From assembly GCF_028736215.1 (NCBI RefSeq), contig NZ_CP117883.1:682001-746000 (forward strand): a DNA stretch of 64,000 bases. Direction: 5' to 3'. Source of the DNA: Mucilaginibacter sp. KACC 22773 (GTDB taxonomy: Bacteria > Bacteroidota > Bacteroidia > Sphingobacteriales > Sphingobacteriaceae). The notes beneath the pieces are model-generated. The model was not told where the DNA came from, did no database searches, and worked only from the letters and a program-made list of their open reading frames with translations. Shown here piece after piece: positions 19,555 to 37,500 of this stretch; positions within the stretch are counted from its first letter, which is position 1; every line of letters starts with the position of its first letter. The translations under genes were made by a program, and so were the position numbers.

Positions 19555-22034
19555 CCGAACTATTGACGACTACAACTGAATTTCTGCTCAATAATATCGC
19601 TGTACGGCTGACCACCAAAATCCTTGTTGCCGGGCAAGTACGTCCGGATGTGCATGGTAGTGGCGTCATCTATTATACGACAAAGGATTGCGGCTATATG
19701 TATGTATTTACAGCACTTCATTGCGTTCTTGGCAGAAGAACACATTCAGCAGAGGGTAATACTTATGAATATGCTATAAAGGATGTTGACCATGTATTGG
19801 TAGAGCATAATCCCAATCTTGATTCATCTGCCTTTAAAAGCGAAAAAGTGGCGGTGGCGGAGATTATCGTTGACTCCCAGAACGACTTTTGCATCCTGAA
19901 GGTTGAAAAAATGCTGGTTTCCCATATCCCCAATTTCCCAGAAATCGTCATTCATTCAAACAAGCGCAAGGAGGGAACGTTCAGATCGGCCGGGTTCTTA
20001 TCATCAAATGACCGGAAGAACCTGACATTTATCAATTTCAATTATGCGGGCGCATCGCCGGATAAGATGCTCGTCGTTACCACACAGGGTGGCATTGATG
20101 GAGAAGACGCCACTGCAAAAATCGGAGGTTATTCTGGTAGCGGTTTAATGATGAAAAAGGTGCCTGTTTTGTGCGGCCTGGTAACCAAACTCAATGATGA
20201 AACTGCATTTGCCGGAAATGTTCATGTGAAAGACCTGAGCTATTTGCCAATCAACGAATTGCTCAACACACATGATTCGACTAATGAGAAGATCAGGTAT
20301 ACCAGCGATGCTCACCATATTATCATTAATGAAGACGGCGATCTCATCGATTTAAGTAAAGTGGAAGTGAATGGTGTCAAATTGAATATTTGGAAGGCTG
20401 TCGGTAACATCAGGAAAGATCTGGCAGATGATTGGTTTCAGGACCCTTTGCGATTTAAAGACATCCTTTACTCTGCAGATATTTATAAGCTGATCAAAGC
20501 AAACCTGGCTAATGGCAAATACCAGCCAAAAGACCCTGAACTATACGCGATTCCAAAGGAAGGATTTACCACACGAAAGGCGGTACAAACTGCATTTTTA
20601 GACAGGGTGATTTACCAGGCCGCAGTTGACCATCTGGCCAATGAACTGGATAACAAGGTCATCTCCAGTCATGTCTATTCTGTGCGATATAATTATAACG
20701 TCACTAATAATCACGATTACTTTTTTTTTCATACGGTAGAACAGTGGCGAAAATTCCAGTATCAGATACATGATACCATTAATCCAGCTATGCCGTACCT
20801 TGTAGCAACCGATATTACCAATTTTTACGATAACATCGCTGCGCATAGCTTGCAAACAGCCTTAACAGAACACAGGATCAATGTGAGCGATAAATCCGCT
20901 TATGACAGCGCTTGTGCAATTGTTATCGAACAAATCAGAAAATGGCAGAGCAACACCGGGCCGCTGAGTGATGGGATACCGCAAAACCGGGAGCCGTCTG
21001 CATTTTTAGCAAATCTCCTGCTCGCCAATGTGGATAAGCAAATGATAGCGGACTTCCCACACTATTACAGGTATATGGACGATATCCGCATTACTTGTAA
21101 AGATAAGTTTGAGGCCCGGAGAGCCCTGATGTTCCTGATCGACAAATTATCGGAAATAGGTTTAAATTTAAATTCACAAAAGACAAAGATTCTTAATTAT
21201 AATGACGGTGCAGACAGAGGCAAAATTGAAGAATACACCCCGGCGCTGGATAAAGAAATCGAACAAATCTGCAGTCTGATGGATTCGGGAAAATCACGGG
21301 AGGTGCAAATATCAGTGATCATGGTAAATAAAATGTTCCATGAGTCACTATCCGATATTCACGATTTGACCAAACGCAAGAAATTCAAATTCGCGATAGA
21401 GCGCTTACAACGGTTTTCCCGTACCCCATTGTTAAAGGATCTGATCAACTTTTCAGAAATCGTAAAAGCGATCATTGAGCGTTTTGAAGATAATCCCTGG
21501 TACTCTGAAATTTATACCCGCTTTTTGCTGACAGTAGACCGGCAGTACATTACCAATGATTTGCTTGCCATTTTAATCCCGTTAGTAATTAATGCGAGTA
21601 AGAACATCTACACCTGGCAATCTTATTTGATCCTGAAGCTTTTAGCCTTTCACCAGGTTGCCGATACGGAACTTCAACAGTTTGCTCAGAAAATAATCAA
21701 CCATTCACAGGGAGTAGAAAAAGCACCTGTTGTTGCGGGTGCTTGTCTTTACCTGGCATCGGTCGATACGACCTCCATCAATTTAATCAAGTCTTCATTC
21801 AATCGCGGCTATTTTCAAAGCCATCTGTCAAAAAGATGCGCGTTAATATGCCTTCAATCCATTGCCCCGGGTGATCTAAATAATAGCTACCTGGATGCAG
21901 TAGATAAAGAGATTCATTTGAAAGCATATAATAAGTTTACAGAATTCGGGAAACAGTCATTTGTTTACGGTTTGCCAAAATTGAAGGTCAATCAAATATC
22001 CAGGGACTTACCACAAATCATTTCGTTGCTATGA
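19539..22034 (+). CDS. Trypsin-like protease fused to a reverse transcriptase
   Basis: This 831-residue protein carries two catalytic domains. Residues 1-245 form a trypsin-like serine protease with an apparent full triad: H61 in FTALHC, D116 in NDFCIL and S199 in GYSGSG. Residues ~300-560 form a reverse transcriptase: motif A VATDITNFYDN (D425), motif B GIPQNREPSAFLANLLL (~479-495) and YMDD (512-515). The C-terminal 270 residues are helical and unassigned, as in Abi/DRT-type RTs. The start is TTG at 19539 or possibly TTG at 19563; the first ATG comes only at codon 54, inside the protease. It overlaps MBL by 16 bases and the polymerase by 4 (ATGA). It is not a group II intron RT: no maturase or HNH part is seen. 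Confidence 0.85.
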   Translation: MFTLITELLTTTTEFLLNNIAVRLTTKILVAGQVRPDVHGSGVIYYTTKDCGYMYVFTALHCVLGRRTHSAEGNTYEYAIKDVDHVLVEHNPNLDSSAFKSEKVAVAEIIVDSQNDFCILKVEKMLVSHIPNFPEIVIHSNKRKEGTFRSAGFLSSNDRKNLTFINFNYAGASPDKMLVVTTQGGIDGEDATAKIGGYSGSGLMMKKVPVLCGLVTKLNDETAFAGNVHVKDLSYLPINELLNTHDSTNEKIRYTSDAHHIIINEDGDLIDLSKVEVNGVKLNIWKAVGNIRKDLADDWFQDPLRFKDILYSADIYKLIKANLANGKYQPKDPELYAIPKEGFTTRKAVQTAFLDRVIYQAAVDHLANELDNKVISSHVYSVRYNYNVTNNHDYFFFHTVEQWRKFQYQIHDTINPAMPYLVATDITNFYDNIAAHSLQTALTEHRINVSDKSAYDSACAIVIEQIRKWQSNTGPLSDGIPQNREPSAFLANLLLANVDKQMIADFPHYYRYMDDIRITCKDKFEARRALMFLIDKLSEIGLNLNSQKTKILNYNDGADRGKIEEYTPALDKEIEQICSLMDSGKSREVQISVIMVNKMFHESLSDIHDLTKRKKFKFAIERLQRFSRTPLLKDLINFSEIVKAIIERFEDNPWYSEIYTRFLLTVDRQYITNDLLAILIPLVINASKNIYTWQSYLILKLLAFHQVADTELQQFAQKIINHSQGVEKAPVVAGACLYLASVDTTSINLIKSSFNRGYFQSHLSKRCALICLQSIAPGDLNNSYLDAVDKEIHLKAYNKFTEFGKQSFVYGLPKLKVNQISRDLPQIISLL

Positions 22035-23650
22035 ACCAATTTGTCATCAATAATTTATCAGTAGCGAGTGGTGCTGGGCATTCCACCTTTTACGTTTATG
22101 ACGGCTCAGCCTACAAGACAGTAACTTCTATGGCTTTGATAGCAGAAGAAAAGACGAATATTATATCTTTCGATTGGGATAATGTTATTTCCTGGCTAAG
22201 CGCACGCAAAGAGGCGATGCCCAAATACATCATTGATATTGAACAAATTGCAAAACAGTTGTACGGGCAAAAAAAAGCCAGGCAGGATTTATTGCCGTGG
22301 TCCGTTTGGAATATTTTAAGAGCATTCTATAATGAGGATACCGAAAAGGATGATTTTAAAAAAACACAGAAATTGTATCAGGGACTCGCCGATGCGGATG
22401 AACCGGAACGGCAGCGGCTTTTTTATCGAATGCTCTCAGCGATGTACACTTGCTATGAACAGCAACTCAAAGAGTTGAATGCGAAAGGTGAATATGACCG
22501 ATTTTATCATGTTGAACGACCTATACGTGTCATCAACTTAGAGCGTACTTATAAAGGAATTACTATCAATACCGGCAGTGTTTCTAATTGGGTAAGTCAG
22601 CTTAGCCATGAGGTATATAAACTCCGGAACCGGCTTCAATTGGAATTTGATATTGTATCTCCGACGGATGTAAAGACGGTGCTGAGCAAAATTGAAGATA
22701 AAGCGTTGATCCGGGAAGCAAGAGAATTGATAGAAGAAAAAGGCTATTATTTTTTTTTAAAGGACTCAAAATTAAGGCACCCCTTAATAGAGTTGCTGTA
22801 TCAGGAGAAAAAGTCTACTACTGACCTGAACGCTTTATTATCAATAGGTGCGCTAAACCCTACGCAGCAAAAGATATATCCAGTTTACGACTCTTTCGGC
22901 ACCATTACCGCCAGGACAAAAGTAGTAACGCCCAACTTGCAGAACCTGACAAGGAAATTCAGAAGTATTGTAAGCGCCGATAAAAAGAAAGAGTTATTAT
23001 ATATCGATTATGCGCAATTTGAAGCCGGGATACTTGCTGATGATTCAAAGGATGTCGCCTTAATCAATGCATACAATACTTCCTACATTTATGATTCGAT
23101 TGGTGAAAAAATCCAAGTAGAAAAATACATTACAGATAAAGTGGAACAACTTAAATTTTGCAAAAGCTTATTTTATAAGTATTCCTACGGTATGGATATC
23201 AGCAATAACATCGGTATCCTGAAGGACTTTAAATTAGAAGCACATGCCCCGACGCTTTCCAAATTGATTGTTGATGCTTTTAGTTCTTTTACTACATTGG
23301 ATGCCTACAGGACAGCAATTAAAGAAAAAGCATTGACCGAGAATAAAATCGGAACCCGCGACGGAAACTATCGCTATCGACTTGAAAATGAGAAAAACGT
23401 ATCCTGGGCGATGAGCCAACGAATTCAGGGAACCGCTTCCCTAATCATTAAACGAGCAATTATAAAATTGCGTTCCATTGATAACGAAATAGAATTTCTA
23501 ATTCCAATGCATGACGCAGCTTTATTTCAGGTGCCAAAAGAGACTGCGAAAGAAAAGGAAGATACTATTCAACGGATTTTTGAAGAGGAATTTCTAAAAG
23601 AATGTCCTTCATTGAAGGTTTCTGCAAAGTTTAAGAACTTTTGCGATTAG
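22031..23650 (+). CDS. Family A DNA polymerase, short and divergent
   Basis: A 539-residue PolA-like protein. Before the palm lies ITARTKVVTPNLQNL (~292-306), matching the GRLSSxxPNLQNIP segment. Motif A is DYAQFEAGIL (catalytic D326, E331), motif B is KSLFYKYSYG (K378, Y386), and then come RIQGTASLIIKRA (~464-476) and motif C HDA (H494, D495) with Ala replacing the usual Glu. Both catalytic aspartates are present, so activity is plausible. The N-terminal ~270 residues have no recognisable 5' or 3' exonuclease motif, unlike housekeeping Pol I (~900+ residues). Its ATG overlaps the RT stop codon as ATGA, so it belongs to the same unit. It may copy the RT product into a second strand. Confidence 0.85.
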   Translation: MNQFVINNLSVASGAGHSTFYVYDGSAYKTVTSMALIAEEKTNIISFDWDNVISWLSARKEAMPKYIIDIEQIAKQLYGQKKARQDLLPWSVWNILRAFYNEDTEKDDFKKTQKLYQGLADADEPERQRLFYRMLSAMYTCYEQQLKELNAKGEYDRFYHVERPIRVINLERTYKGITINTGSVSNWVSQLSHEVYKLRNRLQLEFDIVSPTDVKTVLSKIEDKALIREARELIEEKGYYFFLKDSKLRHPLIELLYQEKKSTTDLNALLSIGALNPTQQKIYPVYDSFGTITARTKVVTPNLQNLTRKFRSIVSADKKKELLYIDYAQFEAGILADDSKDVALINAYNTSYIYDSIGEKIQVEKYITDKVEQLKFCKSLFYKYSYGMDISNNIGILKDFKLEAHAPTLSKLIVDAFSSFTTLDAYRTAIKEKALTENKIGTRDGNYRYRLENEKNVSWAMSQRIQGTASLIIKRAIIKLRSIDNEIEFLIPMHDAALFQVPKETAKEKEDTIQRIFEEEFLKECPSLKVSAKFKNFCD

Positions 23651-23756: not shown

Positions 23757-25838
23757 GTGGAAACAGGCTTCAACGTACAGGATCTGGCTATTAAATTTTT
23801 AGAGGATTGCAACGCACCAGTATTCCTGACGGGCAAGGCCGGAACGGGAAAAACGACACTGCTTCACCGGATTAAAACGGCGAACACTAAAAATATGGCT
23901 GTTGTCGCGCCGACAGCGGTGGCTGCGATCAATGCAGGCGGAACGACAATCCATTCTTTTTTCCAGATGCCTATCGGCCCCCTGCCGCCGAACAGCGGCG
24001 AGCCACTGGCGCTGCGGATGAGCCGTGAAAAAACAGTGCTGCTCATTAAGCTTGAACTGCTGATCATTGATGAGATCAGTATGGTCCGGGCCGATACGCT
24101 CGATTACATCGATACGCTGCTTCGCTATGTGAAAGGTTCGGCCCAGCCCTTCGGCGGGGTCCAGGTGCTGATGATCGGCGATCTTTTTCAGTTGCCGCCG
24201 GTATGGGAACGCGACTGGCCGATCCTTGGCCGTTATTACCAGGGCCCTTACTTTTTTAACAGCCTCGTCCTTCAAAAGCATGATTTTTTTACTTTGGAAC
24301 TTAGCCAAGTCTACCGCCAAACTGACCAGGCTTTTATTTCCATCCTCAATGAGATCCGGCATGGCCAGGTGACTGCTGAGCTGTTGGAACCGCTGAACAA
24401 GCATTACCGTTCTGAAGCAGAGATCGGCACCCTCCAGGATTACGTTACCCTTTCGACCCACGTGCAATCGGTCGACCGGATCAATACGCAGCGCCTGGAA
24501 GGCCTGGAGGGCGCTGCGTTCGTCTATAAAGCTGATGTTACCGGGGAGTTTGCCACGGATGCCTACCCGGCCGAAGCAGAACTTGTCCTCAAGGTGGGTG
24601 CGCAGGTCATGTTCGTCAAGAACGACCTGTCGGGAAAAAAGCAATATTTTAACGGGCGTACGGCGCGGGTCACCGGGCTGCAGGAAACGAGCATCCAGGT
24701 GGCCTTTCTCGATGACCACAGCGAATTCGAAGTGCTCAAAGAAACCTGGCAAAACGTAAAATTCGCCTTGTCGGCTTCAGAAAAGAAGATTAATGAGACC
24801 AGCGCCGGCTCATTTACGCAGTATCCCTTGCGGCTGGCCTGGGCGATCACGATCCATAAAAGCCAGGGCCTGACCTTCGATAAAGCGGTCATAGACGTTA
24901 CCTCGGCTTTTGCAGCGGGACAAACCTATGTCGCACTCAGTCGCTGCCGGACGCTGGAAGGGATCGTATTGCGTTCCCCGATCAGGCCTGAAAATGTAAA
25001 GACCGCACCGGCCATCGTGGACTTCATGACAGCGGCGACATCAGGTTCGCCGGACCTGGCCACCTTAGCCGTAGCCAAAAAAATATCGGAATTTAACGTG
25101 ATCAGCGACGCCTTCAATTTCGGAGTGCTGTCAGATGCCTGGACAGGCTTTAAAGACCAGCTGGAAAAACAAGCCGGGGACGCCGGGACGATCAATGCGC
25201 AGGAAGCCGTCGCGATGACCAAAGTATTCGGCAGCGAGCTCAGGGCCGTTGGTGACCGTTTTATTCAAAAAGAGCTGCGGCAGGGCCTGCCGCGGGCCGT
25301 GCTCCAGGAGCGCATCAATGCGGCGGCGGCGTTTTTCCAGCCCAAGCTATCAGGCCTGCAAGCGCAATTGGAGCATATCCTGCTGCAATTGCCTGGCAGC
25401 GAGCTGGAGTCCGAATTTTATAACCGCTATAATTACCTGCAGGCGAACATCCGGCAAAAACTGGCGATGCTGCATGGGGCCGTTCACTTTTCTACCGGGG
25501 CAGATATCTTACTTTATGCGCGGGATGCACTGGTCGGCTATAAACCTGTCTTTAAGAATTGGCGGCCCAAGACAACGGCTAAAGATGCCGACGTGGAAAA
25601 CCCCGCGCTATACAAAGCACTGCTGGATTGGCGCGGGGAAACGGCGCAGCAGAAAGGCACGCCTGAATATTCACTGATCTCGGAGAAAATCTTGCGGGAG
25701 ATCGCCAAGAAGCTACCAAAGACCTTCAGCCAGTTATCCGCGATCAAGAATTTCGGGGAGCAGCGCGCGCAGGAATATGGTGAGGCGATCCTCCGGATGG
25801 TCAGGGAATTCCTGGGGGAAGGCGATAGACTATTTTGA
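23757..25838 (+). CDS. Pif1-like superfamily 1 helicase with HRDC-type C-terminus
   Basis: A 693-residue helicase with a probable GTG start. Motifs in order: Walker A GKAGTGKTT (~25-33), APTAVAAINAGGTTIHSFF, Walker B LLIIDEISMV (~102-111), GDLFQLPPV, and C-terminal WAITIHKSQGLTFDKAVID and TYVALSRCRTLEGI. The last ~80 residues (EKILREIAKKLPKTFSQLS to GEAILRMV) match an HRDC nucleic-acid-binding domain. This architecture is common as a chromosomal gene in Bacteroidetes. Codon use is clearly GC-richer than the cassette to the left, so a new composition block starts here. Its end overlaps the convergent HExxH gene by 9 bases. Confidence 0.88.
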   Translation: METGFNVQDLAIKFLEDCNAPVFLTGKAGTGKTTLLHRIKTANTKNMAVVAPTAVAAINAGGTTIHSFFQMPIGPLPPNSGEPLALRMSREKTVLLIKLELLIIDEISMVRADTLDYIDTLLRYVKGSAQPFGGVQVLMIGDLFQLPPVWERDWPILGRYYQGPYFFNSLVLQKHDFFTLELSQVYRQTDQAFISILNEIRHGQVTAELLEPLNKHYRSEAEIGTLQDYVTLSTHVQSVDRINTQRLEGLEGAAFVYKADVTGEFATDAYPAEAELVLKVGAQVMFVKNDLSGKKQYFNGRTARVTGLQETSIQVAFLDDHSEFEVLKETWQNVKFALSASEKKINETSAGSFTQYPLRLAWAITIHKSQGLTFDKAVIDVTSAFAAGQTYVALSRCRTLEGIVLRSPIRPENVKTAPAIVDFMTAATSGSPDLATLAVAKKISEFNVISDAFNFGVLSDAWTGFKDQLEKQAGDAGTINAQEAVAMTKVFGSELRAVGDRFIQKELRQGLPRAVLQERINAAAAFFQPKLSGLQAQLEHILLQLPGSELESEFYNRYNYLQANIRQKLAMLHGAVHFSTGADILLYARDALVGYKPVFKNWRPKTTAKDADVENPALYKALLDWRGETAQQKGTPEYSLISEKILREIAKKLPKTFSQLSAIKNFGEQRAQEYGEAILRMVREFLGEGDRLF

Positions 25839-26978
25839 GCCGGCTGTGTTCAGGCCGAACTGTGCTTTCAACCCGTTGATCACGTCGGTCTCATGTTGAT
25901 AGAAGTTTAGCGGGTCGGTCTGGGCAGTTTGCCAGGCGGCCGACAGTAATTCAGACACAGACTTATTCTGCGCGCCCAGAAGTTCTGTGCAGGGCGCCAG
26001 GTCGGCGTTATCATAAAAGCCGATGAACTCGTCAATGATCAGCTTGAACAGCTTATCCGGGTAGATCAGTTTATAGGCGGACGGCCGGAAGATCTCCGCT
26101 TCGCTCAGAAAGCGCTGCCAGGTCTCCTCGATCTGCTTTTTCTCTTCGGCGAGGCCCAGTTTTTCGAGCATCAGCAGGATGATCCGCATCCTGGCCTCAT
26201 TGGCCGGGTGGGTATCGTTATATTCAAAGATCTTGGAGGAGCCGTGATCCGCGGAGATCAGTTTGAGGTTCGTCCAGGCGTAGGCCGCACCGGTCATATA
26301 GGTACCGGCTAGGTCACAGGAAAACTCCTCCAGCCAGGATACCTGCCAGAGGTATTTCGCGCGCTCCACTTCCGCTCCAAAATGGGCGTGCTGCTTTTTA
26401 TCATGCAGGGTCGCGATCTCTCGTTTGAAGTGCTTTTCGATCTCCGGGGCGGAAAGCTCACAACTGCGGCCTTCGTACATCGAGTACAGCAAATGGCCGA
26501 TCTCGTGGTACATGTCGGGCAGGTTCAGCAAACTGTTCTCCTCACCCGAAGGGATGGCGATGATCTCGAGCATGGGTACGGCCCAGTAATAATAGTCATG
26601 GTTACTGATCGTCGAAACGATGGGCGGCACGGAAGTGATGCGGTGCTCTTTGTAGATCTTCTTGATCAGCCGGTAAAAAAAGATCTCCGGGTCGCCGTAG
26701 TTCTTGATCGCCAGGAAGCGGTAAGTATGGTACGCGTTGAATTCCCGGTTCAGCCGGTTGTACTGAAACAGGTAATTCCCCGAAAGGTTATCATACTCCA
26801 GGCCGCCGATCTCCAGCGCCTGCTGGATGGGCTTACGGATCTCCCGGATCTTTAAAAGCGTGCTTTCGATGAAGCGGGTGCGGTAATCTTCATGATGCTC
26901 CATCCCGTTGATCTCAGCGATCACCAGGTCGATGCGGTGCAGCAGGTCGGCATATAAGGCTTTGACGAAATTCTTCAT
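25830..26978 (-). CDS. HExxH zinc metallopeptidase-like protein
   Basis: I do not recognise the family of this 382-residue protein, but it contains MYHEIGHLLY with a canonical HExxH site (H158, E159, H162). WLEEFSCDLAGTY follows about 57 residues later, and its E217 or E218 could be the third zinc ligand, as in gluzincins. No signal peptide or membrane helix is visible, so it should act in the cytoplasm. It is the last gene of the sigma-Argonaute operon and overlaps the preceding gene by 4 bases (ATGA). A role in cleaving a regulator or activating a partner is an inference from other defence loci. Confidence 0.7.
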   Translation of the reverse strand: MKNFVKALYADLLHRIDLVIAEINGMEHHEDYRTRFIESTLLKIREIRKPIQQALEIGGLEYDNLSGNYLFQYNRLNREFNAYHTYRFLAIKNYGDPEIFFYRLIKKIYKEHRITSVPPIVSTISNHDYYYWAVPMLEIIAIPSGEENSLLNLPDMYHEIGHLLYSMYEGRSCELSAPEIEKHFKREIATLHDKKQHAHFGAEVERAKYLWQVSWLEEFSCDLAGTYMTGAAYAWTNLKLISADHGSSKIFEYNDTHPANEARMRIILLMLEKLGLAEEKKQIEETWQRFLSEAEIFRPSAYKLIYPDKLFKLIIDEFIGFYDNADLAPCTELLGAQNKSVSELLSAAWQTAQTDPLNFYQHETDVINGLKAQFGLNTAGSK

Positions 26979-27418
26979 CCCCGCGATGATCTTAGTTTGC
27001 GGTAAAGCACGGAGGCTTCATTATCCAGGATTGAAATAAACCGGTCGATATCGCCCAGGTCCTTATTCGTCAGATGCTGATGGTTACGCAGCTTGGCCGC
27101 GGCCTGCTTCACCTGCTCGCGGTACTCCACGTTCTCCAAGATATACTTACGGAATAGCTGGTTCTCCGATAACTGGTATAGCGAACTCGATGACTCCTGC
27201 TTATCGTAGAAAGCCTCCAGCGTGGCTAGAATATTCAGCAGTTCCCGGTTAGCTTTGGCGACCTCCTCATCAGCGACCTGGAGCCGCGGATGCGTTTCCA
27301 GGATCTTTTTATTGGCGGCCATATTCCGCCTTTTCAGCACGATCACAGAGCCGTTGAGCTCGTTCGTCAGGCTGGAGACCGAACTGTATTTTTTATATAA
27401 TAAAGTGAAATCACTCAT
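26975..27418 (-). CDS. Small helical protein of unknown function in the Argonaute operon
   Basis: A 147-residue, highly charged and apparently all-helical protein, probably coiled coil around residues 50-75 and 100-140. It has no membrane segment, cysteine pair or catalytic motif that I can see. It begins 3 bases after the Argonaute stop codon and overlaps the HExxH gene by 4 bases, so it is certainly part of the operon. It could be an adaptor between Argonaute and the metallopeptidase-like protein; that is a guess from position only. Confidence 0.65.
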   Translation of the reverse strand: MSDFTLLYKKYSSVSSLTNELNGSVIVLKRRNMAANKKILETHPRLQVADEEVAKANRELLNILATLEAFYDKQESSSSLYQLSENQLFRKYILENVEYREQVKQAAAKLRNHQHLTNKDLGDIDRFISILDNEASVLYRKLRSSRG

Positions 27419-27421
27419 CGC

Positions 27422-29809
27422 TTATTCCTCCATCGTATCCTGCAACAGTTTATATTCCTTGGCCTGTACGTTCGCATAGGTGTACTCATGGGCCACATCA
27501 CGGATGATCAGGTCGATCAGTTTCAGCGGCAACGGTAATGAGCTGGCCCGGTCCGGCGCCGTGAAATTGAGCTGGGTCATCGCGAAAACATCATCGACGG
27601 CTTTATCGAAATCAATGTCGCCCCAGGCCAGGCTGACGCGGATCGGGTTGGATGAGCCGGGTATCTTATAGGGAAAGCCAGTGTTGAAGATATAACATTC
27701 TTTTCCCTCACGGATCGGCACGACCGTACCGGCATCCGCGTTGTCCAGCATATTGTTCTGATCGGGGACGGCGGCACGGATCGGGATGGCCGAAGACTTG
27801 GCGACATCGAGCACGGCCAGTTTAACTTCCGACTGGTCGATCTTGCCGTCCTCCCGCAGTTTATCAATGGCCGCCATCAGGGCCTTTTGCTCTTCTCCCC
27901 AGGAGGTCCCGTCACGCAGCACGACGATGCTTTTCGGAAACTCCTCCCCTGCATCCAGGTGGCGACTGAGCACCTCAACGATCTTATCCCGGATCAGGCC
28001 GGAATTGACCTTTTCGGTCCGGAAGGTATTTCCGGCCTTCTTAGCGGTCTTTTCGATATCGAAGACGATCTTTTCACCGTTCTTGAACAGAAAGCAGAAG
28101 CCCGCATAAAATTCATGCGCGTCGATCCCGATGTACAGATCGTAGTTCAGGTTCTTGGCCAGGGCATACGGCCATTTCCTGTTCACCACCAGGTATTTGA
28201 ACAGCGTATTGACCTGGTACGATTTAAAATCCTGCATCTTATGGTCAGGCACATCGTAGATCTTGGCGCCACGGGCATCCATCGCCGAGCGCATATATCG
28301 CTTCAAACTTTTTTCACTGATACACTTGAGGTTGATCGTATCGAACAGCTCTTTCTTGACCAGCTTATGCAGGTTCTGGCTGAACCAGTTATTGCCTTCC
28401 AGCTGCGGCAGCACGAACAACCCGTAACTGCCGTTCAGTTGTTTGGCGTTGACCATGGCCTCAAATTCACGGCAGACCTTTTCTGCAAAGGGCCGCTGCT
28501 TCATCGGATAGGTCATCAGTTCAAAGCCGCGGAATGTTTTATCCAATTGCATCATCGCCCGGTTGAAGTAATATTTGATGCTCTTTTGCATAGCGAAAGG
28601 CATGGTATCAGGCACGAAGATGTACTGGCTCATGTATTCGTCTTCGTTCAGCAGGCCATAATCATAGGTGAACTTCCGGCGCCTTTTCGGAAAAAGGTAA
28701 AGTTCGGCACCGTGAACGCCGGAGGCGGCCTGGTAGGGATCGAGGATATGGCCGTTCGCATATTTCAGGGCCGGGAAATCGATGATCCGGCATTGCTGGA
28801 TAAACGGCACTGTAGCGATCGCTAATTTGATCCCGGCAAAGCTAAAGTTCTGGAAATACTTTTGAACGAAGAACTCGGCGCTGGCGAAGCGGCGGTGCGG
28901 CTGATTGATCGAAAGGCGGTGCAGGCCGTCCTCGGCCAGCGTGATCGGCTTGGCCAGGTCCGCGGCACCTTCCATTTTCTTATCGCTGTCCTTGGTATAG
29001 GTATGATAAAAAGTCAGGGAATCCTTGCTCAGCTTCGGCGGTTCCGCAGCATTGGCATACAAACCCTTGGTCGTAATATAGTCGTAGATCGTACCGGAGA
29101 AATCATCCTTGGTAAAAGGCTGCTCGCCGATCTTCCCGCCGATGGCGCTGCCTTTGACGGTATACCATTCGTCACCGTTCAGATAAAGGAACGATTGGCC
29201 GAGCACATAGCCGGCCCACTGCTCCTTCGGCAGGGTTTTTAGGATCTCGGTGAGTGTATTTTTATCGGCGTAGCGGTATGCCAGGTCAACGCAGACGAAG
29301 AACTCCCCGTTCTGCTGGTGCACGCGGTATTTGAAGCCCTGGTAGATATCCGTTTGAATATCTACCGAATTGCTGGTCGGGTTCTTTTTGAGGAAGGAAT
29401 TATTCCCGCCGCTCCATAAACCTTTTTTGCGCTTCAGCTGAAATTCGATGGCATTCTCCAGGAACCGCACGGCCAGGGCCATATTCTCGTAGGAACGGTC
29501 TTCCGGATCGAACTGAAAGACCTGCTCGACCGGTTCCAGGTAAACGTCCAGCGGCGTACCGACCAGGGTGATCGCGCAAAGCTCCGCGTCCGAACGGACA
29601 GCGATATATTTTTTATGGTCGTACCAGGCTTCCGATACCACGCCACGGGTCACCGAGGCCATGTGTTTGATCGCGTTGTTGAACGAGGTATTGTAATCTT
29701 TACCCTCGGTTTTTCCGCCCTCCACAGACACGGCCATCAGCCGGTAGCTAAACCGTAACTGGCTGCAATTGCTGATGCTGAACCAATTGAGTGTATTGTC
29801 CTTCGTCAT
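27422..29809 (-). CDS. Long prokaryotic Argonaute with an apparently intact DEDD site
   Basis: A 795-residue protein of full pAgo length. The N-terminal half (1-430) is divergent and should hold the N and PAZ lobes. The MID domain lies around 430-555, and PIWI covers 556-795. The four catalytic residues can be placed: D563 in YIGIDAHEF, E599 in FRTEKVN, D633 in VVLRDGTSW and D766 in PLPLKLIDLI. The spacings 36 and 70 equal those of CbAgo as I recall them (D541, E577, D611), so a cleaving enzyme is likely. Related long pAgos from Mucilaginibacter and Pedobacter use DNA guides against RNA; whether this one does is untested. The start overlaps the nuclease gene by 62 bases; an alternative start at codon 25 would remove the overlap. 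Confidence 0.9.
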   Translation of the reverse strand: MTKDNTLNWFSISNCSQLRFSYRLMAVSVEGGKTEGKDYNTSFNNAIKHMASVTRGVVSEAWYDHKKYIAVRSDAELCAITLVGTPLDVYLEPVEQVFQFDPEDRSYENMALAVRFLENAIEFQLKRKKGLWSGGNNSFLKKNPTSNSVDIQTDIYQGFKYRVHQQNGEFFVCVDLAYRYADKNTLTEILKTLPKEQWAGYVLGQSFLYLNGDEWYTVKGSAIGGKIGEQPFTKDDFSGTIYDYITTKGLYANAAEPPKLSKDSLTFYHTYTKDSDKKMEGAADLAKPITLAEDGLHRLSINQPHRRFASAEFFVQKYFQNFSFAGIKLAIATVPFIQQCRIIDFPALKYANGHILDPYQAASGVHGAELYLFPKRRRKFTYDYGLLNEDEYMSQYIFVPDTMPFAMQKSIKYYFNRAMMQLDKTFRGFELMTYPMKQRPFAEKVCREFEAMVNAKQLNGSYGLFVLPQLEGNNWFSQNLHKLVKKELFDTINLKCISEKSLKRYMRSAMDARGAKIYDVPDHKMQDFKSYQVNTLFKYLVVNRKWPYALAKNLNYDLYIGIDAHEFYAGFCFLFKNGEKIVFDIEKTAKKAGNTFRTEKVNSGLIRDKIVEVLSRHLDAGEEFPKSIVVLRDGTSWGEEQKALMAAIDKLREDGKIDQSEVKLAVLDVAKSSAIPIRAAVPDQNNMLDNADAGTVVPIREGKECYIFNTGFPYKIPGSSNPIRVSLAWGDIDFDKAVDDVFAMTQLNFTAPDRASSLPLPLKLIDLIIRDVAHEYTYANVQAKEYKLLQDTMEE

Positions 29810-30785
29810 AATTTAAATCATTTAGGATAATTTGTTTACACAGGAACCTGAAATTGCATATCGCGCAGGTTGCCGCTTTGTCCGTACGTTCATAATCTTC
29901 GATGTCCAGTTCGTCCCAGGGCCTAGATTGGGAAAGTTCCTCTTGCTCGTCGCTGAGCAGGAACACCCCGTCCAGCGCGTTGGCGGCCGAGTCCTTGTTG
30001 ATCACATGCTCTTTGAATTTGCCATTGAGCAGGTTGAATTCGAAAAGGCGCACATCCTCCAGGGCGGGCAGCGGCTTCCACTGCTCCTTTTTATAACGCT
30101 CCCTCGAAAAATGGAGCGCTACGATACCGCCCAGCAGCAGCTGGCGCGAGTAGTCGGCGTCGGCTTTTTCCACGACCTTCCAGTCGATGACATGCATGGA
30201 TTTACCCATATAGCTGATCAAATCGATCTGCGGCTGGATCTTGATACCCTCATATTCGTATTTCAGCGTCTTGGCGTCAGGGCGCAGAAAGCGGGCGGAA
30301 AGCAGGTACTGTTCCATGTTCCTGCCCGGCACCGGGCTTTGAAAATTCGGAAAGGCCAGCAGGATCTCTTCGATGGTCTGGTAGACGCCCTGTAGCTCTG
30401 CTTCCGTATAAGGCATATTGGACTCATGGACATCGAGGATCGCGTAATCGGTACCGGATTCCGTTTTAGAGATCTCCGGGTCGTGATAGAACCTGTTAGC
30501 GGAGAACTCGAATTGCTTTTTAGCCATATCGACCCCTTTTTTGGCGATCGCAGCATAATCGGGGACCTCGCGTTCCTGGTAATAGGGCAGGATCTCGTTG
30601 GTGATCATCCAATCGACGATAGTCCCCTGCCACATTTTCAAGTTCTTCATTTTGGACAGCTCATGCGCTTTGCGCCGGAAGGGATCGGCAAAACTGCGCG
30701 ATGCCAGCTCGTACGCGAAGTAGAACTTGCGGTGGCACTGCCGCAGCACCTGCAATTTACTGATATTCCAATCCCTGTTCGCCAT
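29748..30785 (-). CDS. Cas4/RecB-like PD-(D/E)XK nuclease with Fe-S cysteines
   Basis: A 345-residue nuclease. The PD-(D/E)XK core is visible as QPQIDLI (D188) and HVIDWKVV (D201, K203), the latter with Asp in the place of the usual Glu. Four cysteines fit a Cas4/AddB iron-sulfur cluster: C17 in RQCHRKF and C307, C310, C316 in CAICNFRFLC. Cas4-like genes next to long pAgos have been reported, and such nucleases may trim DNA into guides. The start codon shares one base with the stop of the upstream gene (TAATG), and the end overlaps the Argonaute gene by 62 bases. Confidence 0.85.
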   Translation of the reverse strand: MANRDWNISKLQVLRQCHRKFYFAYELASRSFADPFRRKAHELSKMKNLKMWQGTIVDWMITNEILPYYQEREVPDYAAIAKKGVDMAKKQFEFSANRFYHDPEISKTESGTDYAILDVHESNMPYTEAELQGVYQTIEEILLAFPNFQSPVPGRNMEQYLLSARFLRPDAKTLKYEYEGIKIQPQIDLISYMGKSMHVIDWKVVEKADADYSRQLLLGGIVALHFSRERYKKEQWKPLPALEDVRLFEFNLLNGKFKEHVINKDSAANALDGVFLLSDEQEELSQSRPWDELDIEDYERTDKAATCAICNFRFLCKQIILNDLNYDEGQYTQLVQHQQLQPVTV

Positions 30786-31387
30786 TACAAAGTATGATAA
30801 AGTTCTGTTAAACGATCTGTATAATTCTTCAGTGCCTCTTCGTTCTGGTACAAAAAGCTCTCGTCCGACTTGATGCCCGAAAGGTCCTTGCCCAGTTCAC
30901 CGCGGATCATCCCTTTCCGGTAAGACGGCTGGAAACTGCCGGATGGCATGACCATATTCCGGGCTTCCGTCTGCAGGCGGTCAAAGGTGACCTGGATCGC
31001 ATCCATCGCGCTGTCTATGCCCAGGCCCAGCAGTTTCAGGAGTTTGACCAGCGACTTGACAGGCACGCTGTTGGTAAACACGCGGTCTGCCTGGATCGCT
31101 TCGATCAGCGATGGGGTCAAGCCTGTTTTTTCCTGCAGTTCCAGGCTGGTCAGCTGTTTGACGGCGACACTTTGGGTCACCATGCTGCCCAATGAAGCTT
31201 TGCTGAGCTCTGCTGTCAATGCGTCCAGCATCCGGCCGGCCTTTTCCTCGGGCAGATGTACATCCACGGCCCGCTGGAATACAAAGGCGGCTTCTGCTTC
31301 CGGAGAAACAGCCGAGGCCTGGTCCGTCCGGCTGGCGTAAGCGGTCAGTATATGCTCGAACGGCAATAATTGCTTATCTTTTTTCAT
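30785..31387 (-). CDS. HTH-like cytoplasmic protein paired with the sigma factor
   Basis: A 200-residue protein without membrane helices or zinc-binding cysteines. The segment LQEKTGLTPSLIEAIQADRV, followed by PVKSLVKLLKLLGLGID (~85-130), resembles an XRE-type helix-turn-helix. The gene overlaps the sigma gene by 4 bases (ATGA) and shares a base with the nuclease start. By position it would be the sigma factor's regulator, but it is not a classical membrane or ZAS-type anti-sigma factor. It could alternatively be a second DNA-binding regulator. The family is unrecognised. Confidence 0.65.
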   Translation of the reverse strand: MKKDKQLLPFEHILTAYASRTDQASAVSPEAEAAFVFQRAVDVHLPEEKAGRMLDALTAELSKASLGSMVTQSVAVKQLTSLELQEKTGLTPSLIEAIQADRVFTNSVPVKSLVKLLKLLGLGIDSAMDAIQVTFDRLQTEARNMVMPSGSFQPSYRKGMIRGELGKDLSGIKSDESFLYQNEEALKNYTDRLTELYHTL

Positions 31388-32013
31388 GACATGTTTTCTT
31401 TTATAATGCCCAATGTTTTCTTTTCTACTTTCGCTTTAGCCCGCAGGAAACGTACTTTCAGTTGATTGTTCTCGATCCCCAGCATGGCGGCGATGTCATC
31501 ATAACTGTAGTTATTCATCCGCAGCAATAAAATATCTCGGTCCGTCTCACTGATCTCCTGCAGCGCTTTTTCGAGGGCTAGGAATAAGGGGCTTTGTGAT
31601 GTTTCCTCTTCATAAACCTCGGTGCTGCCCATGTTCAATACCGGGCTATGCTCAAATTCGAGCCCCTCGCTATCCTCTTCCGTTGCGGCGAACTCATCCT
31701 GCCAGTCAACCAGCTTGAATTCGATCTGCTCTTTCGCCATTTTTGCCCGGACCGCCATCAGCGTATTGTTCCGGTGGATCTTAAAGAGCCAGTTCTGGAA
31801 ATGCCTTTCGGAATCGAACTCGTTCCGGAGGATCACTTTGCCGACCGTTTCCAAGGTCTTATAAAGCACCTCATAACATTCCTCCTCATCCAGCGCCCAG
31901 TTCTTTAAGGAATACTGGTACAAGGAGCGCCCGTATAACTCATACAGGAGCGAAAGGCCTCCTTTGAGGTCTTCCTGGTACTTGGCGATGACTTGAAGAT
32001 ACTTTGCTTCCAT
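31384..32013 (-). CDS. ECF-type RNA polymerase sigma factor heading the Argonaute operon
   Basis: A 209-residue sigma-70 family protein. Region 2 spans about 25-100, with a divergent DEEECYEVLYKTLETVGKVI and the RHFQNWLFKIHRNNT segment. Region 4 spans about 150-200, with ISETDRDILLLRMNNYSYDDIAAMLGI as its HTH. It is the first gene of a six-gene leftward operon that includes an Argonaute. The upstream gap carries two mirrored 13-nt sites, consistent with autoregulation and with shared control of the divergent hydrolase gene. Confidence 0.85.
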   Translation of the reverse strand: MEAKYLQVIAKYQEDLKGGLSLLYELYGRSLYQYSLKNWALDEEECYEVLYKTLETVGKVILRNEFDSERHFQNWLFKIHRNNTLMAVRAKMAKEQIEFKLVDWQDEFAATEEDSEGLEFEHSPVLNMGSTEVYEEETSQSPLFLALEKALQEISETDRDILLLRMNNYSYDDIAAMLGIENNQLKVRFLRAKAKVEKKTLGIIKENMS

Positions 32014-32034
32014 GCGTTACTTATCTATATGTAT

Positions 32035-32118
32035 TGAGGTTACCAAAAATGGCAGCCGGCACAAATAAATATTAAAATTAATTTATTCCGTTGATTAAAA
32101 ATACCTTCGGTAACCTGA
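32035..32118. promoter_or_regulatory. Mirrored 13-nt sites in the divergent sigma/hydrolase promoter region
   Basis: TGAGGTTACCAAA lies on the plus strand at 32035-32047 and TCAGGTTACCGAA on the minus strand at 32106-32118, sharing the core AGGTTACC. They sit in the 166-base gap between the divergent starts at 32013 and 32180. Each site faces the gene it could drive across the other site. The core resembles a -35 element of ECF promoters, but no matching -10 was identified with confidence, so operator sites are an alternative. Confidence 0.5.
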
Positions 32119-32179
32119 AATCATAGGATGTTAGTAAGTAGCTGATATTTGCTAATTTTAATGAACTAACCCGTTACGC

Positions 32180-33646
32180 ATGAACTACCGCATTTACTTC
32201 GAATTCAAGGCCGTTGAGCGCCAGCTGATCGGCGTGTCGCTGAATGGGGAAAATGTCGGTTTGCAGACCGAAGTGGTGGCAGGTCACCGCATCTATGTCT
32301 ATGAATTGCGTAATTACCAGGAAAGGTCCATCGCGCTCCGCATCCAAAACCTATCCGAAGCAGTGACGGTGATCATTTCCGTTCATAGTGATGCCGGACA
32401 GAATATCCTGTCTGACTGGCAAACACTGGAGCAACCGGACGAAGCCGCTGAGCTGCGGATCGACCTGCTGGAGAGCCGGATCGAGCGGATAACCGATAGC
32501 GGCCGGTTAATGCCGAATATGGTACCGGTCAGGCGGCCGAGCCGGAATGAGATCAAAGAGATCAGGGCGAAAATCCAGTTCGTCGAGCAGAAATATTCGG
32601 CCAATCAATCGTTCGCCCAGCCGACGCGGGATGAGTTGCTGACCGCCAGGGCCGATGAACCGCAGAACACCCTGGTGGATGTATTCTACGCGACCGATCG
32701 CGCCAGGCAACAAAATAAAAGCGGTGAAATTGCCTATACGAACAAGCGGGGTGACCTGGAATTAGGGGTATGCCAGGTCAACGTGCCGGGTAACCGCAAA
32801 AAGGGCGAATTGCCGCTTCCGCCTTGGTATCTTTTCGGCCTGTATACGAACGATGCTTTGCATATGTCCGTCAAGCGTACCGACCAGCTCCGGCCCGATG
32901 ACTTTTTCGCGCAGGTCACCGCAAAGGTCGGCGGCTCGCCGGAGAAGGACGCCCTGCTGTTCATCCACGGCTTCAATGTCGGATTTACCGAGAGCGTGCT
33001 GCGTACCGCGCAGATCACCGCGGACATCGGTTTCCGGGGAGCGCCTATCGTTTATAGCTGGCCCTCGCGTAAAAGCGTTTTCAAGTACGCAGCCGACGAA
33101 GCGACGTCCACAGGTTATTCCATCGATAATATTATTGAATTGATCAAGACCATTAGAACCAGGACAGGCGCCGAGCGTGTTCACCTGATCGCGCATAGCA
33201 TGGGCAACCGGTTTTTGACCGACGCTCTGAAAACACTTGGCGACCAGGGATTCACCCAAGAGTTCCAATTCAACCAGATCATCCTGGCAGCGCCGGATAT
33301 CGATGCGGAAGTTTTTGTCAAAAATATCGCGCCGAAGATCGCCCATGCTGGCGAGCAGGTCACCTTGTACACCTCGCTTCACGACAAAGCACTCCGGCTT
33401 TCCAATACCATTCATGGGGACATCCAGCGGGCCGGGTTCGCCGGAAAACTGCTGGCCGTTTTTCCAGGGATCGATACCGTCGATGCTTCTAAAGAGAGCA
33501 CAGATTTTTTAGGGCATGGCTATTTTGCGCAGAGTAAAACATTGATCAACGATATTTTTGCGGCGACAAGGCACGGGCATGGTCCCGAAGCCAGGAATTT
33601 GCGCCGACGGGTCTCCGGCGAACGTTTTTATTGGGATTTTCAATAA
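32180..33646 (+). CDS. DUF900-type alpha/beta hydrolase
   Basis: A 488-residue protein. The first ~150 residues are unassigned and beta-rich. From about 165 the DUF900 hallmark VDVFYATDRARQ appears, followed by LLFIHGFNVGF (oxyanion region, ~257), PIVYSWPSRKS and the nucleophile elbow LIAHSMGNRF with Ser near 340. An Asp (APDIDAEVF, ~374) and a late His would complete the triad. Substrate unknown; DUF900 members are predicted esterases or lipases. The gene is divergent from the sigma-Argonaute operon, shares its mirrored promoter sites and its GC-rich composition. It may therefore be a regulated partner, for example a membrane-damaging effector; this is inference. Confidence 0.8.
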   Translation: MNYRIYFEFKAVERQLIGVSLNGENVGLQTEVVAGHRIYVYELRNYQERSIALRIQNLSEAVTVIISVHSDAGQNILSDWQTLEQPDEAAELRIDLLESRIERITDSGRLMPNMVPVRRPSRNEIKEIRAKIQFVEQKYSANQSFAQPTRDELLTARADEPQNTLVDVFYATDRARQQNKSGEIAYTNKRGDLELGVCQVNVPGNRKKGELPLPPWYLFGLYTNDALHMSVKRTDQLRPDDFFAQVTAKVGGSPEKDALLFIHGFNVGFTESVLRTAQITADIGFRGAPIVYSWPSRKSVFKYAADEATSTGYSIDNIIELIKTIRTRTGAERVHLIAHSMGNRFLTDALKTLGDQGFTQEFQFNQIILAAPDIDAEVFVKNIAPKIAHAGEQVTLYTSLHDKALRLSNTIHGDIQRAGFAGKLLAVFPGIDTVDASKESTDFLGHGYFAQSKTLINDIFAATRHGHGPEARNLRRRVSGERFYWDFQ

Positions 33647-33714: not shown

Positions 33715-34584
33715 ATGCCTACTCCACAAGATATTCTAATCGGCAAGCATCCCGCAAAAGGTAACTTTTTTGCCGAGTGGCTGGACTTTCTGGATGAAGC
33801 TGTTCCGGCTGCCGATCCCAACAAAAAACATCGTAAACTCAGCGAAATTGCTGGAAAAAGGGGCATAGCAATAAAGGGCATTGCCCAGTACCTATTAGAC
33901 CATCATGTAGATCCTAAAAAGCTTGCAAGGGCAAAAAAACGAAAAGAGGAGATATTAAAAAAATACAAGCTAAAATCCTTTGAAGAATATTTAGACACGC
34001 AAACTTATTTTCCCAAAGCAAAAAATACAAGAAACGGGAACACTGCGGAGGTTATCTTATCGAACTATTTACAGGTTACAAGTGGTTTATCCTTGCTGGC
34101 TTTTAAACTCACTTATAACCCAAATGTCGACCAAGCTATCAAGGGTGACGATTGCCTGCTTTTTGACGTAAAAGACCTTACACGCAAAGTTATAGTAGGA
34201 GAAGCAAAATTCCGTGGCAGATCGCCGGATAATAAAGCCATTAAGGAGATGATCAAAAATCTGGAGGGCGCAAAGAAATTACCTATTTCTCTCCCTTTTA
34301 TTTCGCAGCATTTTACAGCCATTGGAGATGAGGAAATGGCAGCGCAAATTGATGATTTGTTATACGAGCTTACCACGGGAAAAGTAAACGTGGTCAACGT
34401 TGGCCTGATTATAAGCACCAAATCCGCTAATAGAGGCCAGGACGCGGGGCAACAGCTGGATCATTATTTAAAAACTAATAATCCCCAACTGGTGGCCTTA
34501 TCGCTGGGAATAGACGATCCTGACGAGATCGTTGATAAAACTTTTGATGAGGCTTATAAATTCCTTAAAGCTTCTGTCAAATGA
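33715..34584 (+). CDS. hamA: Hachiman nuclease subunit HamA (DUF1837)
   Basis: A 289-residue protein with the DUF1837 pattern: GNTAEVILSNYLQ (~107-119), then NPNVDQAIKGDDCLLFD (~135-151) and KVIVGEAKFRG (~158-168), a D...ExK PD-(D/E)XK-like nuclease site. It overlaps the helicase gene by 4 bases (ATGA). HamA with HamB forms the Hachiman anti-phage system, in which the helicase senses damaged or foreign DNA and releases HamA to degrade DNA. Composition returns to AT-rich here, marking a boundary from the Argonaute block. Confidence 0.85.
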   Translation: MPTPQDILIGKHPAKGNFFAEWLDFLDEAVPAADPNKKHRKLSEIAGKRGIAIKGIAQYLLDHHVDPKKLARAKKRKEEILKKYKLKSFEEYLDTQTYFPKAKNTRNGNTAEVILSNYLQVTSGLSLLAFKLTYNPNVDQAIKGDDCLLFDVKDLTRKVIVGEAKFRGRSPDNKAIKEMIKNLEGAKKLPISLPFISQHFTAIGDEEMAAQIDDLLYELTTGKVNVVNVGLIISTKSANRGQDAGQQLDHYLKTNNPQLVALSLGIDDPDEIVDKTFDEAYKFLKASVK

Positions 34585-37500
34585 ATCCTGAAAGAGCAAT
34601 AGAAAATTTTGACCGTCTTGAAAAAGATGGCGATGCGCAGAACCTTTTTGCACGGGCAAACGCTCGTTACATACTACTTGGGGTTAATGAACCACGTGAA
34701 AACTTTCCACGGACGTTAGAGACGAACCTGACTCTTGGTTCAGACAGCCTGGCATTTTATTATTTAAACATTGGCTGCACCCTTTATGAAAATATTTCTC
34801 AATCGGAAATTATTGGCAGGTGCCTGGAGAAGGGGGCGGAATTCCTTGAATATAACCACTCGCCTGAAGCGAACAGGTCTCAACTGAGTCCTTATTGCAT
34901 CTTAACCTGCGGATTGGCGTACTACGCATCAGGCCAATATTCAAAGGCTTTTATTATTCTCCAGGGCATTGAAGGATACAAAACCGATGTTTCGGTTATG
35001 GTCAGCGCCTTTTTAAGGAAACGGTTTGATGAGGTAGGCATCATTTTGAACCGCATCCTTATCAACTCCAGGGCGTACTCTGAATCTTTTGAGGAGGAAG
35101 ATCGCGAAAACTCCCTTGCAATAATTCTTTTCGCCAAGTCTATTGCAATGTTGATGGATTATCTTTTTTCCGGTCATATCGATAGCCTTGAAAAGGCAAT
35201 CGATATTCAAAAGGACTTATTGGAATTACTAAGCATCGAACGAGAGCCATCACTTTGGTGGGTGGTCAGATTGTTCCGGATCATTTCGACCGGGTTTGAA
35301 ACAAATTCCTTGTGGGCCACTATTCATGAGCAGATTACTGATGACCTTGAAAGCACAAAGGAAAGTTACATACATAATTTACTGTTTGCTAAAAACCCTG
35401 TTGTAGAACTTTTTAACGCACAGATAGCGGCATTGCCAAAGATCCTGTCTCCGCAGGGTGCAGTTGTCAGTTTACCCACGAGTTCCGGAAAAACACAGAT
35501 CGCAGCGATAGCTGCGCTGGAGACCCTTTCCCAGGATGCCAATGCAAAGGTGCTTTATCTTGCACCGTACAGGTCTTTGGCCTATGAGGTGGAAGTGTCG
35601 CTCAAAACCCTTTTCGGGCCGTTGAATTTTTCGGTCTCGCAATTATATGGCACCGGACAATTCAGCAAGGTTGACCAATTGGTATTGGACGAGGCCAGTA
35701 TTCTTATCGCTACGCCCGAAAAGGCCAAGGTCATATTAAGAGGGAATGAGCATATTTTTGATGCGGTGAAATTAGTCATTATCGATGAAGGTCATTTGTT
35801 AGGTAAACAACGACGGAACGTTATTAATGAATTTTTCATCGAGGAAATCAGATTGTTACTATCTCGTAACGGCGGCAAGTTAGTTTTGCTATCAGCTGTA
35901 CTACCTAATGCCGATACCATAGCGAAGTGGCTTTGTGGCGATGAAAAAGCTTGTGCCGAGGGAAAAGAGCGGCTGGCAAGGCAACGCCTCGGTTTGATGA
36001 TCTTTCGTAATCATAGTGTTAACTTGGAATGGTTTGGCGAAGAAAAAAGTTTTAACCCAGGGTTTATCCGGCCTATTCCTTCAACGCGGAAAGGAGGTTT
36101 AACACAGCCAAATGACAAAGCATTGGCCGTGGCCCTGACGGCCCTCAAGCTGAGTGACAATAAACAGTCCGTACTCCTTTTTACAGCGCGGGCAATCAGT
36201 GTGTACACTTATGCCAAAGCTTTATTAAAAGGGATAAAACTAACCGATGATGAAGAACTTTTCGACTGGCAGGATTGCCCGGAATGGCAGGAGTTGAAAC
36301 TTGTTTGTCAAGAATATGAATCACCCGAAAACAGTCAGATCATGGAATATGCGAAACATGGAATTTTGTGCCATAAAGGGGATTTAAACAAGGAATTACG
36401 GTTGGTGTTGGAAAGGCTGATGCGGAATGCCAAACCCAGAATTATTGTGGCGACTACAACGTTGGGGCAAGGGGTAAATCTTGGCGTCAGCACGGTTATT
36501 ATGGCTGACATCGAATATTATGATGCTGTTCGTAAAAAACAAACAAAGCTTACCAATAGCGAAGTTTGGAACGTCCTTGGGAGGGCTGGCAGGGCGTTCC
36601 AAGATGTTGAAGGAAAAATATTATTTGCGGTAGAAACTTTGGATGACCGCAAGCAAGCTGAGATTTATATAAAAAATGAACCCCATAACGCCCAAAGTGG
36701 TGTACTCAGCCAAATTAAAAGGGTCAAGGACCTTGCTAAAGCTGCCGATGTCGATTTTGACACGTTGTTGGGCCTGATCGCGGAAAACAAATTTAATGTT
36801 TTCAGAAAGAGAAAACTGGTTGCCACACAGGTGCGGCTTGACCATGAATTCTTAGAAATAATGGATTGGCTGGATGACACATTACTTTCCCTTGATATCC
36901 GCCTGGGAGGTGATGAGGACGACTTCGATGATCACCTGCGAAATACGCTGGCTTACATCCAGGCTGAAGATGTCGAAGGAATAAGCCAGGATAATGTCTT
37001 TGATTTTTTAAAGGCGCGTTTAAAATCACTTAAGGAAGTTGTGGTGCCAGAAGAAGGGCGCAGATTGGGGCTTGTTTCCTCAGGGCTGCCGCTTGCAGCA
37101 GCTATTAAACTGGATGAGGTGTTTGAAGACGCGCTGAAACTGTGCGATCTTTATCTGTCATCCGAAATGGAAATTGATGATAAGCTTGAATTGCTGAAGG
37201 CATTAGAGCATATCGTTGTCGGCTTTCCATCCTCTCCTTTTGAACCACTTCGAAAGTCAAATGGAACGCCCAAATTTACAGAAGCAGAATACGACGTGAT
37301 CCGGTCTGTATGGATTGGCGGAAAATCACTCTCGCTTTTGAAAGTGATTGATGATGCGGTCAAAGCGTGCAACAATTATTATGCTTATACTATTACCTGG
37401 GTAATGGGAGCCTTTGCCAATAAATGCAAGAGCAGGGATGATGACGAGCATGCCAGCTTATTCGAGGAGCTGGCTATTTCCGCTGAAATGGGACTGCCTG

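Follow-up and report, generated by a model that had tools for sequence, protein, structure and literature searches.

We analysed a 64,000-nucleotide (nt) stretch of the Mucilaginibacter sp. KACC 22773 genome, referred to below as the window (positions 682001–746000 of a 7.54 Mb single-contig Bacteroidota genome), which carries a six-gene operon containing a long prokaryotic Argonaute (pAgo). All six open reading frames (ORFs) lie on the minus strand at window positions 25830–32013, in the leftward order given in a preliminary description of this DNA, and they are joined by overlaps of 1 to 62 nt and one gap of 3 nt. Specifically, the sigma gene overlaps the helix-turn-helix (HTH)-like gene by 4 nt and the latter overlaps the nuclease gene by 1 nt, while the nuclease and Argonaute ORFs share 62 nt, counted from the Argonaute's first ATG. 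A gap of 3 nt separates the Argonaute gene from the gene of a helical protein, which overlaps the HExxH gene by 4 nt. The six genes and the element preceding them are as follows, in window coordinates.

31384–32013, minus strand: extracytoplasmic function (ECF) sigma factor, 209 amino acids (aa), with regions 2 and 4 (TIGR02937, Sigma70_r4_2, homologs in 16 other loci).
30785–31387, minus strand: Xre-like HTH protein (P5) with extra helices, 200 aa (HTH_19, AlphaFold2 model, Foldseek).
29748–30785, minus strand: Cas4-like PD-(D/E)XK nuclease, 345 aa, with a four-cysteine signature of the iron-sulphur type (PDDEXK_1, Aga_Cas4-like_Nuc).
27422–29809, minus strand: long pAgo of the PnyAgo group, 795 aa, predicted DNA-guided RNA nuclease (pAgo_II, catalytic tetrad, tree).
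26975–27418, minus strand: small all-helical protein, 147 aa, with a C-terminal LDxExxxLFRKLR motif (alignment of 16 loci).
25830–26978, minus strand: HExxH zincin-like protein, 382 aa, with an M48-like signature (invariant columns, motif spacing).
32028–32043, minus strand: putative promoter element GTAACC-N6-CATA, 30 nt from the sigma ATG (found in 17 of 17 sigma loci).

Relatives were searched for in whole genomes, in a species-genome collection and among plasmids. A strong homolog of the HExxH protein was found in 27 loci, window included, and 26 of these have the genes arranged as nuclease–pAgo–(small protein)–HExxH; the contig of one locus (L087) is cut before the nuclease gene, and the small gene of some sigma-less loci, too divergent for the profile, was recognised by position or not inspected. 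The full six-gene order, whose sigma, HTH and HExxH genes the preliminary description expected to recur beside related Argonautes, is indeed present in 16 loci including the window; since the identical order recurs in 15 further loci, the arrangement is not due to chance. The four-gene core spans Bacteroidota, one cyanobacterium and one alphaproteobacterium, and its hosts include Cyclobacteriaceae, Emticicia, Spirosoma and Runella plasmids, a cyanobacterial plasmid and a Rhizobium plasmid. The pAgo query matched 7 of 395 Bacteroidota genomes, and the HExxH profile matched the same 7 together with three loci lacking a pAgo, one of them a strong match and two weak; in the plasmid search, both matched exactly the same five records. 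The viral contigs and phage records searched gave no relatives, and so no sign of phage-borne copies. The helical and HExxH proteins thus accompany these Argonautes invariably, an association that is new here.

The pAgo loci occur in two regulatory forms. Sixteen carry the sigma factor together with the Xre-like protein, and ten have no sigma factor; among the latter, the nuclease gene overlaps a short gene for an Xre HTH protein in eight, neither regulator is present in the cyanobacterial locus, and one contig is cut. Among the sigma-less loci that could be read, only the cyanobacterial one lacks an Xre HTH at that position, and the combination of an HTH protein with the HExxH protein thus appears as the general rule. 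In L010, two overlapping ORFs of 172 and 87 aa take the place of a single Xre-like gene (L010:8240-9018), perhaps owing to a frameshift, and the near-identical L011 has the gene intact.

A further locus, L063 (genome G391), contains the sigma, Xre-like, helical and HExxH genes in order. In this case, which is also new here, the place of the nuclease and the pAgo, between the Xre-like and helical genes, is taken by a 136-aa protein (L063:9824-10234) with plasmid relatives that carry a GIY-YIG nuclease annotation. The sigma/Xre-like module can thus run without a pAgo, and even with another protein in the Argonaute's place the HExxH and helical genes are retained, which would fit a control module. 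This one locus suggests that the four proteins form a unit able to serve another nuclease. The GIY-YIG variant was rejected as a widespread form, given that the two plasmid relatives inspected lie outside such an operon; no second case was found among 20 relatives of the L063 host.

The sigma factor is of the ECF type, as first proposed: TIGR02937 matches nearly the whole protein (residues 23–199, E 6e-15, above the cut-off), and Sigma70_r4_2 matches with an E value of 1.5e-9. At the sigma start of 17 of the 17 sigma loci (16 with pAgo, and L063) we found the element TGTAACC-N6-(C/G)AT(A/T), with a fixed spacing of 6 nt, while at the corresponding position TGTAACC-N6-CAT is present in none of the ten sigma-less loci. 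The window copy has G in place of the first T, and in the 14 loci left after removal of close relatives neither GTAACC nor the AT of the second half varies. The first candidate start codon in L083 overlaps the element, and the true start therefore lies further downstream. The background frequency of the element is about 0.001 per 150 nt, and the window holds two copies compared to 0.10 expected from shuffles of the window. Across the 7.5 Mb of the genome, 21 exact matches were counted, against 24 for the reversed control; the element being no commoner than its control, a large regulon is not supported, and only the two copies in the intergenic region stand out.

All together, these data strongly support control of the operon by the sigma factor, by the Xre-like protein or by both. 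Autoregulation of the operon is very probable, because the element accompanies every sigma locus and no sigma-less one, and the same distribution speaks for the earlier proposal that the sigma factor amplifies its own operon. The link between element and sigma factor is new here.

The Argonaute matches the PADLOC model pAgo_II with 1093 bits. Its PIWI tetrad D563/E599/D633/D766, correctly named to the residue in the preliminary description, is invariant in 26 of 26 homologs. In a maximum-likelihood tree of the pAgos, a single branch (support 100) separates all the sigma loci from the rest, and RslAgo (Runella, L026), a characterised member of the sister PliAgo group, falls outside this sigma clade. 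The nuclease matches PDDEXK_1 (E 6e-8) and the PADLOC model Aga_Cas4-like_Nuc (E 2e-52), so that the Pfam and PADLOC matches uphold both of the identities first assigned, long Argonaute and Cas4-like nuclease. In 16 aligned nuclease homologs, D188, D201-x-K203 and the cysteines C17, C307, C310 and C316 are invariant.

Pairs of this kind have been described previously. DNA-guided RNA-cleaving (D-R) pAgos were defined by Lisitskaya et al. 2022 (PMC9360449), whose main text reports a PD-(D/E)XK nuclease in both D-R groups, accompanied in the PliAgo group by an HTH regulator and in the PnyAgo group by a sigma70 factor; it also reports DNA-guided RNA cleavage for PnyAgo and HpeAgo, and leaves the natural role of these Argonautes open. 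The window operon shares with the PnyAgo group a long pAgo with the DEDD tetrad, a sigma70-family factor in the same operon, a PD-(D/E)XK Cas4-like nuclease directly upstream, and the clade. Its Argonaute very likely belongs to this group, a placement made with RslAgo as outgroup, and on the strength of the family relationship it would be expected to cleave RNA with DNA guides. The operon differs from the published description of the group in its Xre-like, helical and HExxH proteins, unmentioned in the same text, and in the MID pocket of the Argonaute, which reads HKKK instead of HKQK: H481, K485 and K545 are present, and the group's glutamine is replaced by K495. Across the two regulatory forms, sigma loci have H-K-Q/K in this pocket, and the sigma-less ones do not, except for the cyanobacterium (H-K-Q). 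The lysine at K495 (window 28325–28327) also occurs in the nearest relatives L008–L011, L079 and L081, and the remaining branches of the sigma clade show HKQ.

The preliminary description had held both a dedicated sigma factor and a metallopeptidase-like protein beside an Argonaute–Cas4 pair to be novel. The first part falls, because PMC9360449 describes the sigma factor for the PnyAgo group; the second stands as far as its main text goes, where neither a protease-like nor a helical protein is mentioned (figures and supplements lay outside this search). Surveys of 2009 and 2018 list Cas4-like partners, and word searches of their main texts for 'sigma' and 'protease' found nothing.

The HExxH and helical proteins had no convincing family in Pfam, NCBIfam and PADLOC scans. 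In 16 homologs of the former, the invariant residues include H158, E159, H162, E218, C221, D222, H257, P258 and R263, arranged as HExxH-x54-ExxxCD-x34-HPxxxxR (HEIGH-x54-EEFSCD-x34-HPANEAR in the window). This motif order, an HExxH followed downstream by a glutamate with an aspartate and by HPxxxxR, matches that of M48 peptidases, and it points to an M48-like signature that is new here. The same genome encodes a clear M48 paralog (HEIGH...EADR...STHPADATR), with which the HExxH profile aligns at all three motifs, with a weak score. An ImmA/M78 identity was rejected, as there was no Pfam M78 match, PF06114 being without a match anywhere in the genome. Distant relatives (E about 1e-7 to 1e-9) occur in L064, L065, L089 and L090, where no Argonaute of this kind was detected; they possibly represent a wider zincin family.

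As regards the Xre-like protein, the HTH_19 match is weak (E 0.044), and the AlphaFold2 model reaches a predicted local distance difference test (pLDDT) score of 80–93 over about residues 61–140. The nearest folds retrieved with Foldseek were SinR, HipB, ClgR, DdrO and Stl, all of them weak (E > 0.05). The gene lies directly after the sigma gene, the usual position of anti-sigma genes, and the protein is a candidate anti-sigma factor, co-regulator or repressor. Its profile matched 5 of the 395 Bacteroidota genomes, every one at a pAgo locus, and this confinement led us to reject, as far as the Xre-like protein is concerned, the idea that sigma factor and HTH protein are a general defence regulator borrowed from elsewhere.

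Given what is observed directly, namely the operon, its conservation, the intact catalytic residues and the element with its strict link to the sigma factor, we propose that this PnyAgo-group operon provides inducible, self-amplifying defence and that its HExxH protease frees the sigma factor from inhibition, a proposal whose chances we regard as evenly balanced. At low expression, the DNA-guided Argonaute would sample short DNA guides, which the Cas4-like nuclease might produce or trim, and would cleave matching invader transcripts. The ECF sigma factor would drive its own operon through TGTAACC-N6-CAT, giving positive feedback, and in some genomes it would also drive a divergent neighbouring defence gene. 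The Xre-like protein would restrain the sigma factor or the promoter, and the M48-like HExxH protein with its helical partner would lift this restraint proteolytically once infection is signalled by the Argonaute or by invader DNA. Xre-like inhibition, its cleavage by the HExxH protein and the trigger are argued from the anatomy of the locus and from precedent, and the proteolytic trigger in particular is a tentative suggestion, somewhat doubtful as it stands.

Two kinds of precedent are relevant. In the pairs ImmR/ImmA, DdrO/PprI and CapH/CapP, an Xre-type regulator and an HExxH protein share one operon, and the Xre-like fold of the window weakly resembles both DdrO and Stl. The window protein differs in that it is M48-like by motif and not M78, is 382 aa long and is encoded three genes away from the HTH gene. 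In the type III-E CRISPR system CASP/Craspase, RNA recognition activates a protease that cuts Csx30, an inhibitor of an ECF sigma factor with motifs in its own locus (PMC10028731). In a Craspase-like version of our proposal, guide-directed recognition of invader RNA would activate the M48-like protease, which would cut the Xre-like sigma inhibitor; the ECF sigma factor so released would amplify the Argonaute operon and turn on neighbouring defence genes as well. Both loci combine a guided RNA nuclease, a protease-like protein, a candidate inhibitor and an ECF sigma factor with sigma-type motifs or candidate sites in its own locus, this last feature being shared by way of analogy only. The window, however, has an Argonaute where CASP has Cas7-11 (gRAMP), an HExxH zincin in place of TPR-CHAT and an Xre-like protein in place of Csx30; the TPR-CHAT and Csx30 families were without a match in the Pfam, NCBIfam and PADLOC scans. 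The likeness is therefore one of analogy and not of membership, since effector, protease and inhibitor come from unrelated families. That the operon is an Argonaute counterpart of Craspase, a modular sensor switch coupling also to other nucleases such as GIY-YIG, seems to us a shade less probable even than the proteolytic trigger. If the protease does cut a sigma inhibitor, Argonautes and CRISPR would have independently reached the same path from a guided RNA sensor through proteolysis to a transcriptional response. What the comparison of loci adds is a parts list: protease-like and helical proteins always found with the Argonaute, and a promoter element that bears on what induces the operon and at what time.

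Several observations weigh against the inducible, protease-relieved operon. The HExxH and helical proteins of the cyanobacterial locus occur with neither sigma factor nor HTH protein; a purely regulatory role of the two proteins is therefore not universal, and effectors are possible. The half-sites of the element are spaced by 6 nt, about 10 nt less than in the usual ECF -35/-10 pair, so that recognition by the sigma factor is not certain, and this spacing is at odds with a canonical -35/-10 reading. As the MID pocket is HKKK and not HKQK, the guide preference may differ from that of the group. Pfam M48 (PF01435) matches 1 of 16 members of the HExxH family (E 0.011), with hhalign probabilities of 5–39%, and the AlphaFold2 model of the protein, built from five close sequences, has a mean pLDDT of 42.7; with weak statistics and a failed structure prediction, we call the protein M48-like and not M48.

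The main alternative takes the HExxH and helical proteins as an effector: target recognition by the Argonaute would unleash the protease on host or phage proteins, leading to abortive infection, with the sigma and HTH proteins only setting expression. We consider this possible but unlikely. It would explain why the two proteins accompany every pAgo, the sigma-less and HTH-less cyanobacterial locus included, and why they persist beside the GIY-YIG nuclease that replaces the pAgo; yet an HTH or sigma–HTH regulator is present in 25 of the 27 loci (the cyanobacterial one has none and one contig is cut), and the joining of a regulator to an HExxH protein resembles the pairing of an HTH protein with a zincin in ImmR/ImmA and DdrO/PprI. 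According to PMC10620215, short and long-B pAgos are known to be coupled to effectors, and the long-B abortive-infection systems described there likewise have a long pAgo in an operon with extra proteins. They are, however, without the catalytic tetrad, which the window Argonaute keeps; a long-B identity was rejected for this reason, and with an intact tetrad a separate killer would be unneeded.

An operator of the Xre-like protein, acting as repressor or activator, would be a different explanation of TGTAACC-N6-CAT, with the sigma factor acting elsewhere; this too we hold to be improbable. An ECF promoter would not normally have this half-site spacing, and the ATG lies only 27–30 nt from the element in L063 (27 nt, the nearest), L021 and the window. 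Sigma factor and Xre-like protein always co-occur, hence the element correlates with both. On the other hand, the element is non-palindromic, unlike usual Xre operators, its AAC core is typical of ECF -35 boxes, and the loci with a plain Xre HTH are without it, all of which speaks against an operator.

That this is an ordinary D-R pAgo locus, where Argonaute and nuclease defend and the other genes are incidental neighbours, is very improbable: although the group, its sigma factor and its nuclease are already published, the HExxH gene, plus the small gene wherever read, stands beside the pAgo in 26 of 26 loci from three phyla, and its plasmid matches coincide with those of the pAgo.

If the sigma factor does act through the element, its influence may extend beyond the operon, as the intergenic region contains a second copy facing the neighbouring gene, a back-to-back arrangement that is new here.

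32110–32125, plus strand: another copy of the element, divergently oriented and 70 nt ahead of the DUF900 hydrolase gene (sole other match in the window).
32180–33646, plus strand: DUF900 alpha/beta-hydrolase gene, candidate second sigma target (DUF900 E 5e-51).

The DUF900 gene is followed, after 68 nt, by the Hachiman genes hamA (33715–34584) and hamB (34581–37952), both identified by PADLOC. Since the divergent element faces the gene preceding them, Hachiman may share the Argonaute's switch. Divergent elements are also found in L063 and L025, about 67 and about 300 nt, respectively, before a multiubiquitin–ThiF–DUF6527 operon, and in the window, L063 and L025 the neighbouring defence genes could be co-regulated with the sigma operon. 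The multiubiquitin–ThiF–DUF6527 operon adjoins the system in three different hosts (L025, L026 and L063).

Other defence genes lie on either side in the window. At 19539–23650, a UG9-type reverse transcriptase (PADLOC RT_UG9_large, E 2e-175) precedes a family A DNA polymerase (RTasPolA, E 5e-112), the two constituting a defence-associated reverse transcriptase (DRT) pair in the same island as the Argonaute operon. Downstream of Hachiman, positions 40863–43752 hold a Septu-like pair of an ATPase and an HNH protein (PADLOC candidate PDC-M62A/B).

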